Below, one piece after another: positions 33,219 through 34,257 of a DNA stretch of 64,000 nt (within the stretch, counting starts at the first letter, position 1; every line of letters starts with the position of its first letter). The position numbers and the translations under genes are program-made. Source of the DNA: Nonlabens sp. YIK11 (GTDB lineage Bacteria > Bacteroidota > Bacteroidia > Flavobacteriales > Flavobacteriaceae); the NCBI RefSeq assembly GCF_001413925.1, contig NZ_LBMJ01000001.1:1197001-1261000 (forward strand), read 5' to 3'. Below the pieces are notes generated by a model, which ran no database searches, had not been told where the DNA came from, and saw only the letters and a program-made list of their open reading frames with translations.

Positions 33219-33665
33219 ATGAGTTTAGAGAAAGATGTCATGACCGCGATGAAAGAGGCCATGAAGGCAAAAGATCAAACAGCCCTTGCTGCTTTAAGAG
33301 CGGTGAAAGGCGAAATTTTACTGGCAAAAACTTCAGGAGCGTCTGATGGCTTGAGTGAGGATGAAGAAATCAAACTGGTTCAAAAACTTGTCAAACAAAG
33401 AAAGGACAGTGCCCGCATCTATTCCGAGCAAAATAGGGAAGACCTCGCTGAACCAGAACTGGCTCAAGCAGCTGTTCTTGAGCAATTCCTACCAGAACAA
33501 TTAAGTGAAGAGGCTATTGAGGCTGTTGTCGCAGAAATCATAGTTCGCACCAATGCCAACGGTATGAAGGACATGGGAAAAGTTATGGGAATGGCAAATA
33601 CCCAACTTGTAGGAAAAGCAGATGGTAGAACAATTAGCACTATTGTAAAAGCAAAATTGTCTTAA
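33219..33665 (+). CDS. GatB/YqeY domain protein
   Basis: 148 residues. YqeY family pattern: KDQTALAALRAVKGEIL, then RKDSARIYSEQNREDLAEPELAQAAVLEQFLPEQLS, and the C-terminal KDMGKVMGMANTQLVGKADG. This fold is shared with the tRNA-binding tail of GatB. Its cellular role is not firmly known. The C-terminal helices end directly before a palindrome copy. Confidence 0.95.
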   Translation: MSLEKDVMTAMKEAMKAKDQTALAALRAVKGEILLAKTSGASDGLSEDEEIKLVQKLVKQRKDSARIYSEQNREDLAEPELAQAAVLEQFLPEQLSEEAIEAVVAEIIVRTNANGMKDMGKVMGMANTQLVGKADGRTISTIVKAKLS

Positions 33666-33670
33666 GTTTG

Positions 33671-33686
33671 CGCTTTCGCGAAAGCG
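33671..33686. repeat. Palindrome CGCTTTCGCGAAAGCG, copy 11 (intergenic)
   Basis: Perfect copy 5 bases after the YqeY-like stop codon and 8 bases before the duplicated tRNA fragment. Confidence 0.95.
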
Positions 33687-33694
33687 AATAAAAC

Positions 33695-33743
33695 GGCCGC
33701 GTGGCGCAACTGAATACCTGCCTGCCGGCAGGCAGGGCGCACT
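33695..33743 (+). pseudogene. Duplicated 5' fragment of tRNA-Arg, interrupted by a 20 bp palindrome
   Basis: Bases 33695-33716 equal the first 22 bases of the tRNA at 33994, and 33737-33743 continue with the next seven (GCGCACT). Between them sits the perfect palindrome CCTGCCTGCCGGCAGGCAGG (33717-33736). Sequence similarity to the tRNA begins exactly at its first base and ends before the anticodon stem. Confidence 0.9.
33717..33736. repeat. Second palindrome, CCTGCCTGCCGGCAGGCAGG
   Basis: 20 bp perfect palindrome inserted in the tRNA fragment. Related inserts at 6921-6940 and 59638-59658 lie within copies of the first palindrome. Confidence 0.9.
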
Positions 33744-33755
33744 TGAAGGAAGTTC

Positions 33756-34016
33756 ATGAAGTTTGTAGTATATGTGATTGAAAGTGAGCTGGATGGTCGT
33801 TGGTACAAAGGCGTTTCTAAGAATTTTGATTCAAGGCTGGCTCAACATAATTCTGGAAAAACAGCGTCAACTAGACCATATCGCCCTTGGGTCTTGGTTC
33901 ACAAAGAAGAATTTGACACATTTGCAGAAGCCCGAAAGAGAGAATTGTATTTCAAATCAGGAATAGGAAGAGAGTATTTAAAGAAAGTCATTAGGCCGCG
34001 TGGCGCAACTGAATAG
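33756..34016 (+). CDS. Small GIY-YIG family endonuclease, tRNA-inserted
   Basis: 86 residues, one GIY-YIG (URI-type) nuclease domain. The first motif reads VVYVIES and the second WYKGVS; the catalytic Arg is in FDSRLAQHNSG and the metal-binding Glu in KRELYFKSG. The last nine residues (RPRGATE end) are encoded by the 5' end of the tRNA-Arg gene, and the stop codon TAG is at tRNA position 21-23. A copy of the same tRNA 5' end lies 40 bases before the start codon. The gene plus one repeat makes a 299-base unit, which looks like a minimal mobile element that rebuilds the tRNA upon insertion. Nuclease activity is inferred from family residues. Confidence 0.9.
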   Translation: MKFVVYVIESELDGRWYKGVSKNFDSRLAQHNSGKTASTRPYRPWVLVHKEEFDTFAEARKRELYFKSGIGREYLKKVIRPRGATE

Positions 34017-34067
34017 CGCACTGGATTTCGGCTCCAGCGGTTACAGGTTTGAATCCTGTCGCGGTCA
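33994..34067 (+). tRNA. tRNA-Arg (anticodon TCG)
   Basis: 74 bases, cloverleaf checked by hand: acceptor GGCCGCG with CGCGGTC (one G-T pair), D-stem GCGC / GCGC, anticodon stem CTGGA / TCCAG around TTTCGGC, T-stem ACAGG / CCTGT with loop TTTGAAT, discriminator A. Anticodon TCG at 34028-34030 reads CGA. No CCA is encoded. Its first 23 bases also serve as the 3' end of the GIY-YIG reading frame. A long hairpin terminator follows. Confidence 0.93.
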
Positions 34068-34074
34068 CGAATAA

Positions 34075-34130
34075 ATACAAACGCCCTAAAAATGTCTGAG
34101 CTCGCTCAGGTATTTTTAGGGCGCTTGTAT
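34075..34130 (+). terminator. Long hairpin terminator after tRNA-Arg
   Basis: Long stem: ATACAA-CGCCCTAAAAAT pairs with ATTTTTAGGGCG-TTGTAT, with an inner stem CTGAGC / GCTCAG, followed by TTTT. Confidence 0.9.
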
Positions 34131-34257
34131 TTTCAGAGCGGAGCTCCACCAGGATCACCTTTAGGTAATCCTTATAGTTTTATGGTGAGTACTTGCTCAG
34201 GTATTTTATGTCTGCAAATCGAGTTGTAAGCTGTGCGCCATCAGCTGGCTTGTCGTT

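Follow-up and report, generated by a model that had tools for sequence, protein, structure and literature searches.

A 299-bp GIY-YIG nuclease unit with a palindrome and a replacement tRNA end inside an unbroken tRNA-Arg gene of Nonlabens sp. YIK11

The window is the whole stretch of DNA analysed, 64,000 nucleotides (64 kb) of the 3.26-Mb genome of Nonlabens sp. YIK11. This genome is referred to as G000 and its sister species as G001; G and L numbers denote the genomes and loci of this analysis. Downstream of yqeY, a small nuclease gene lies between two copies of the 5' end of a tRNA-Arg gene, with the following parts:

33219..33665, plus strand: yqeY (PF09424), the native upstream neighbour and synteny anchor
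33695..33716, plus strand: displaced native tRNA-Arg 5' end, nt 1-22, in its native upstream context (exact repeat)
33717..33736, no strand: perfect 20-bp palindrome CCTGCCTGCCGGCAGGCAGG, seen in the sequence, with identical or similar palindromes in the corresponding position of relatives
33737..33746, plus strand: resumed tRNA homology GCGCACTTGA, matching tRNA nt 23-32 (GCGCACTGGA) at 9 of 10 bases
33756..34016, plus strand: GIY-YIG nuclease ORF, 86 aa (PF01541, E 1.7e-14)
33994..34015, plus strand: replacement tRNA 5' end (nt 1-22) brought by the element and overlapping the ORF 3' end (299-bp difference from the empty site)
33717..34015, plus strand: the entire insertion, 299 bp, with boundaries that can slide within the 22-nt repeat (comparison with L162)
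33994..34068, plus strand: intact rebuilt tRNA-Arg(TCG) (ARAGORN; Rfam tRNA, 60.2 bits)
34082..34123, plus strand: terminator-like hairpin after tRNA-Arg

The upstream copy repeats the first 22 bases of tRNA-Arg(TCG) exactly, 299 bases before the tRNA 5' end, and the GIY-YIG gene occupies the interval between the repeats, both as a preliminary description of this DNA had reported. The palindrome directly follows the copy and forms the left insertion end if the insertion is placed after nt 22. Because the tRNA sequence resumes beyond the palindrome, the upstream copy amounts to about 32 nt of a tRNA 5' end split at base 22|23, an arrangement referred to below as a fossil. The reading frame enters the tRNA and stops inside it, again as described earlier, its C-terminal end (...RPRGATE) and TAG stop both being read from tRNA sequence. 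This TAG, tRNA nt 21-23, spans the junction at which the fossil is split; the stop is therefore completed by the intact tRNA only. Where another unit follows, the frame can continue into the next palindrome, as in database protein P0004 (...RPRGATEYLPAGRQGA). The tRNA-encoded C-termini that the preliminary description proposed to look for are present among 34 database relatives, window protein counted: PRGATE lies within nine and is terminal in eight. A sigma-70-type scan, which does not cover Bacteroidota promoters, finds no plus-strand promoter before the ORF, and tblastn at 1e-5 finds no match to the window protein in phage or plasmid records. The 299-bp unit combines one small nuclease gene with a palindrome and a replacement tRNA end, and is placed inside a tRNA gene with the tRNA left unbroken. 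Downstream, a 16-nt near-repeat (CTCGCTCAGGTATTTT) occurs at 34101-34116, inside the tRNA terminator hairpin, and at 34192-34207, beyond it.

In the sister species (yqeY dS 0.10 relative to G000), an intact tRNA-Arg directly follows yqeY and no element is present. The flanks of the site in the two genomes are identical over 84 bp upstream and over 88 bp from tRNA base 1 onward, and the length difference at tRNA-Arg is exactly 299 bp. The site is also empty in G014. Across the genus, tRNA-Arg is found in 14 of 23 loci anchored on yqeY; by the screens used, 12 of the 14 have neither the gene nor the repeat, and the other two (G000 and G006) have both. The element proteins of these two are 70% identical (dN 0.26, dS 1.85), and a database protein labelled Nonlabens marinus (P0002) is identical to the G006 copy over the GIY-YIG domain. 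The preliminary description had proposed a minimal mobile element, lacking an integrase and carrying a replacement tRNA 5' end, and had suggested a search for empty tRNA-Arg(TCG) sites. The precise insertion and the empty sister site support this, with movement presumably driven by the nuclease. It had also named two patterns that would speak against the proposal, a duplicated tRNA fragment in relatives without the gene and a GIY-YIG gene kept in all strains without repeats; neither occurs, the 12 gene-less loci lacking the repeat and both gene-bearing loci having it. An integrative element aimed at tRNA genes (ICE, prophage or island) would encode an integrase and use the tRNA end as its att site. 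The window unit is not of this type, because its 299 bp hold a single GIY-YIG ORF and are too small for an integrase.

The replacement of a tRNA end is clearest at a tRNA-Met gene of the same genome (L008), in mirror image. Here an intact tRNA-Met and its terminator are followed by a GIY-YIG gene and then by another tRNA-Met 3' half, where anticodon-loop bases are replaced by the palindrome TCCCGATAGCTATCGGGA. G001 is empty at the corresponding tRNA-Met. Its native flank matches the sequence after the displaced half in G000 at 143 of 150 nt, compared with 80 of 150 for the sequence after the working tRNA-Met, where the first 46 form a shared run. On account of this difference, the terminator behind the working tRNA is the new one, and the native half with its terminator lies beyond the gene. 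Presence/absence polymorphism with intact empty alleles, a hallmark of homing genes, is found between G000 and G001 at both tRNA-Arg and tRNA-Met. Transfer of donor-type flank together with the gene, another such hallmark, is seen at the tRNA-Met of G000 and is less clear in G017, where both terminator kinds are present and an extra decayed copy follows, blurring the order of native and foreign. In G022, judged by eye, the working half and the displaced half are followed by terminators of different kinds, each similar to terminators that follow tRNA-Met genes free of the element elsewhere in the genus; in G220, likewise by eye, the flank after the fossil starts like that of the ORF-less relatives G319 and G320. 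Units of about 80-150 bp that lack the ORF are seen at L200, L214 and L336. At L200 (G000:C1:1528800-1530600), tRNA-His has an ORF-less 3' copy about 100 bp downstream, split by a palindrome, which could be either a relic or a mini-element in the window's own genome. L214 (G320) is an array of units of about 80 bp, each comprising a tRNA-Met 3' end, a T-loop palindrome and a terminator, and no GIY-YIG ORF is found in this array.

A search of 299 Flavobacteriaceae genomes with the window protein returns 65 positives at E 1e-12. A tRNA lies within 1 kb at 80 of 85 family loci, in all 80 on the same strand, the gene being 5' of the tRNA in 70 and 3' in 10; the 85 are 90 loci minus L076, L096, L097, L099 and L100, for which longer versions of the same places are kept. 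L008, L022 and L164, added by choice, stand outside this count and inside the fragment, palindrome and prefix counts below. Five family loci miss the linkage: L126 has a tRNA found by Rfam, L134 is an array containing 3' fragments of tRNA-Met, L150 is at the end of a contig, and L137 and L156 are unexplained. A GTDB scan with one genome per species gives 349 loci; of the best 80, 76 show a tRNA on the gene's strand no more than 500 bp away (72 of 76 without four repeats of the first set), the misses being L233 and L295 at contig edges, L260, whose tRNA is split by a group I intron, and L273, which repeats a tRNA-Leu 3' half. The GTDB loci fall into five phylum-level groups: Bacteroidota, Ignavibacteriota, several Patescibacteria lineages, Planctomycetota and Omnitrophota. 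Among Bacteroidota, a profile matches at E 1e-14 in 171 of 395 sampled genomes, and 27 of 29 places checked have a tRNA within 500 bp, five of the 29 repeating earlier loci. In the control of general GIY-YIG loci from the genus, a tRNA lies within 1.5 kb at 4 of 40, the window being one of the four; the 40 comprise all 12 loci of the window genome and 28 from the best-scoring genus places, best per genome first. At L260:2215-2672, the intron (RF00028, 66.8 bits) splits the tRNA adjoining the element, which would place two kinds of invader in one tRNA gene.

On putatively viral contigs, four relatives of 41-49% identity are found, one of which (L297) directly adjoins tRNA-Arg. Within the GIY-YIG domain, Y5, Y16, G18, R26 and H30 are invariant and E62 is kept in at least 90% of 22 chosen sequences; the domain is of the homing type with conserved catalytic residues, which we take to lie among these six. 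At L203:1553-1842 (G015), the C-terminal end of a longer gene is joined in frame to a GIY-YIG domain that immediately follows a copy of the palindrome, and no tRNA is found at the locus; a protein gene may here have received an element of this kind.

At 61 of 83 family loci and 65 of 76 GTDB loci, a copied fragment of the neighbouring tRNA is found no more than 700 bp away; among tRNA loci of the window genome this holds for 3 of 30, and the three include the window element and L008. In the same control set, the last 17 bases of tRNA-Ser(TGA) (L065, G000) are repeated 161 bp downstream. At the threshold used, no fragment is found at 33 of 159 GIY loci with a tRNA, and a clear fossil is absent at four tRNA-Asn loci (L140, L144, L149 and L154). 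Other small GIY-YIG genes that adjoin tRNA genes with tRNA-derived repeats, for which the preliminary description had proposed a search, do exist; beyond its account are the palindrome, the 3' version, the arrays and the cross-phylum spread. The edges of the fragments concentrate at nt 1 and nt 20-24. Of 157 loci, 83 have a tRNA prefix upstream that scores 16/20 or better (20/20 at 58), as against 0 of 157 shuffled upstream sequences, which dismisses a chance repeat. Among the 83, the match stops at base 20-24 in 77 and at base 22 in 46. Over these 77 loci, themselves selected by the 16/20 threshold, per-position identity is 0.90-1.00 across bases 1-20. Beyond the break, 71 of 77 loci continue with the next six tRNA bases at 5/6 or better, compared with 187 of 770 shuffles, and identity drops to 0.3-0.4 by 14-16 bases past the break, the resumed part being conditioned on at least 5/6. 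Ordinary transposition with target-site duplication was also rejected, since most of the upstream repeats begin with base 1 of the mature tRNA and have clade-typical ends.

At the break, a palindrome that is strong by a strict score is present in 41 of 97 loci and in 1 of 485 shuffles. A further 48 of 97 have a weaker or interrupted palindrome, a class to which the strict-score shuffle control does not extend, and 8 of 97 have none. One palindrome sequence is shared at fossil breaks between Bacteroidota and Patescibacteria, and another is common to these two groups and a planctomycete. Other clades have different palindromes, and some loci have two, near the foot of the D stem and after about base 22. 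A role as an RNA insulator for tRNA processing was rejected, the palindrome of 3' elements lying behind an already terminated tRNA. The palindrome CGCTTTCGCGAAAGCG occurs at 19 places in the window at no more than one mismatch (0 expected), for example at 33671-33686. Some 5' loci (such as L075, L096, L220, L228 and L265) have a second tRNA fragment, nt 59-75, about 100-200 bp downstream of the tRNA, perhaps the remains of 3' units.

Twelve amino-acid types are represented beside the elements: Arg, Met, Ala, Leu, Ser, Asp, Asn, Val, Glu, Thr, Phe and Cys. The target isotype tracks the protein tree, on which tRNA type changes 17 times among 80 rows versus 46-55 times in 200 shuffles; the tree is a quick one of 82 columns with many open forks, and the fragmentary L078, L079 and L098 are left out. 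All 16 Leu rows fall into one group, and the three Ser rows and the four Asn rows each group together likewise; Met rows are scattered over several groups, and Ala and Arg are mixed. General GIY-YIG rows branch together in 28 of 29 cases (support 84), and the remaining one, L005, groups with the tRNA-Asp rows. At L005 (G000:C1:1050862-1054071), a broken GIY-YIG gene near tRNA-Asp lies between copies of a 36-nt direct repeat.

Values of dN/dS in close pairs (L084/L132, 0.23; L124/L131, 0.13; L108/L110, 0.14-0.15; L115/L120, 0.30) suggest purifying selection. This is evident in close pairs only, because the median over 535 usable pairs, many of them distant and in the range where the method saturates, is 0.46 and the maximum 1.06. 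Tandem arrays contain 2-8 units, with a single direction in the arrays examined; some units are identical and some diverged.

The element is probably a minimal, free-standing, homing-endonuclease-like unit that carries a replacement target end, marked by the palindrome, and is aimed at bacterial tRNA genes. What the sequences show is the exact 299-bp insertion with empty sites in relatives, the exchanged end at tRNA-Met, the same-strand tRNA linkage, the tRNA fragments with clustered edges, isotypes that follow the tree, arrays, and low dN/dS in close pairs. From the sequence comparisons we infer cleavage, the repair route, the role of the palindrome and movement itself, along the following lines. 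The GIY-YIG enzyme would cleave tRNA genes that are uninterrupted, at a position typical of its clade (D-loop nt 22|23 in the window), where the palindrome marks the fossil. An element-bearing copy would then serve as repair template through two homology arms derived from the tRNA: on the left, the broken end would pair with the donor fossil, on the right with the donor's intact tRNA, and the interval would be copied in. The repaired gene would thereby acquire palindrome, ORF and replacement tRNA end, the tRNA remaining whole and the old end being left as a fossil. Since the element would bring its own homology arm, taken from the target, any genome with that tRNA would be open to entry irrespective of the flanking sequence. 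The palindrome is proposed to break the site in the fossil, which would therefore stay uncut and hardly recombine back; the rebuilt tRNA would again be an intact site, so that repeated rounds could yield the tandem arrays. The ORF of a 5' element would lie behind whatever promoter drives the tRNA.

In homing genes, insertion destroys the target site; here the fossil is split by the palindrome and an intact tRNA is still present, the recognition sequence being presumed. Unlike in a classic homing insertion, the rebuilt tRNA would thus keep its presumed target, and self-cutting would have to be tolerated or restrained. Other observations also sit less easily with a homing element. The enzyme consists of a GIY-YIG domain alone and lacks a separate DNA-binding domain, and palindromes and tRNA fossils also occur without the ORF. 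At L114, the fossil 5' end differs from the intact tRNA at four positions and an element-free sibling has the intact type, which counts against homing because the simplest scheme then needs a further event.

The ORF-less units and the palindromes also admit a transposase-like reading, which we regard as unlikely. The GIY-YIG enzyme would recognise its own palindrome and carry units bearing it into sites that can form hairpins, tRNA arms among them. Scattered palindromes and tRNA units lacking the ORF would be its non-autonomous progeny, and the system would function much as REP sequences do with their transposases. L200, L214 and L336 would fit, as would the recurrence of the same palindromes at fossil breaks across phyla and the free palindrome copies nested in another palindrome (CCTGCC palindrome within CGCTTTCGCGAAAGCG, by eye, at 6 of 16 genus loci). 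The exact palindrome sequence is found in 34 of 65 genomes with the gene family versus 23 of 234 without, but the first figure includes copies inside elements, and 23 of the 57 palindrome-bearing genomes have no family match at E 1e-12. The palindrome sequences moreover vary between clades, and the repeats at the insertion ends are tRNA sequence, mostly matching the local tRNA, as homology repair predicts. It is possible, though doubtful, that the elements form a cross-phylum class of about 300 bp, so far without a name, in which a bare GIY-YIG nuclease, a conserved palindrome of its own and a tRNA-derived end work jointly. The palindrome would then be a functional part recognised by the enzyme, with ORF-less units and many scattered palindromes as offspring, and the elements would repeatedly have replaced tRNA genes with donor alleles in many Bacteroidota and Patescibacteria.

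Two further readings are less likely still. As tRNA genes commonly serve as integrase targets and some fossils lack the ORF, the gene might be passive cargo of a host or trans-acting integrase that recombines at the tRNA and duplicates tRNA ends. This is very improbable: the insert is too small for a recombinase, both tRNA ends are used (5' in 70 and 3' in 10 of the 80 loci), and the protein family is itself tied to tRNA, with isotype following its tree. Least probable is a resident tRNA- or DNA-maintenance gene lying beside tRNA genes by happenstance. Low dN/dS in close pairs and the highly constant tRNA linkage agree with such a gene, but it is sporadic at the same site (2 of 14 loci), occurs at many isotypes and in tandem arrays, and is accompanied by empty sister sites and a replaced tRNA end; a housekeeping gene was rejected on the empty sites.

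tRNA genes are viewed as stable landing sites for large, integrase-bearing elements. In the homing-like reading preferred here, a one-gene element would enter the body of the tRNA gene, supply a new end and leave the old one behind, thereby offering a mechanism for replacement of tRNA alleles between species. Such an element would explain database proteins that end in translated tRNA or palindrome, and is among the smallest candidate autonomous mobile elements. No description of chromosomal tRNA-rebuilding GIY-YIG elements was found in the open full-text literature, a scope that excludes most subscription papers and all bioRxiv preprints, and this widespread family of tiny elements at bacterial tRNA genes is apparently undescribed.

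Against solved structures, a profile search gives UPF0213 (1zg2, 1ywl) as best match, then SLX1, and I-TevI weakly; to our knowledge, UPF0213 and SLX1 are not mobile elements. REP palindromes are associated with RAYT, a Y1 (HUH) transposase. Like REP/RAYT, the present elements combine short palindromes scattered in genomes with a small enzyme gene; the enzyme is a GIY-YIG nuclease instead, and in the encoded protein only the GIY-YIG domain is found. In the portion of a GIY-YIG superfamily survey considered here, tRNA is mentioned three times, the passage shown concerning a fusion with a methyltransferase, and Bacteroidetes is absent as a term (PMC1564403).

SegB of phages T4 and T6 is a free-standing GIY-YIG homing endonuclease that cleaves within tRNA genes and drives segmental amplification of a tRNA-Tyr and segB unit (PMC13096335). 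The present elements share with it a small GIY-YIG enzyme, a genomic tie to tRNA genes and tandem amplification of tRNA and nuclease, which for SegB proceeds via microhomology that the 5' end of the tRNA shares with the 3' end of the nuclease gene (PMC13096335). Compared by description only, SegB differs in being phage-borne; that study reports no preference among isotypes, and the part of it used here describes neither a palindrome-split tRNA fossil nor an element-carried replacement tRNA end (PMC13096335). Mobile endonuclease ORFs (mORFs) of fungal mitochondria make gene hybrids in Allomyces atp6 and in Glomus atp6, atp9, cox2 and nad3 (PMC3630166). As described in the sections drawn on here, a horizontal origin is inferred for mORFs, and their insert is a replacement gene end plus an endonuclease ORF, with the displaced native end beyond the ORF matching relatives (PMC3630166). 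The present element has all three components, replacement end, endonuclease ORF and displaced native end. Its target differs: mORFs lie in mitochondria, in protein genes and at C-terminal ends, with a LAGLIDADG enzyme in the atp6 example (PMC3630166), whereas units of about 300-400 bp here use both ends of bacterial tRNA genes and have palindromes in the fossil. In conclusion, the element appears to work like a free-standing homing endonuclease of the gene-hybrid kind, as a new variant in which cleavage of the empty allele, a defining feature of homing, is presumed.
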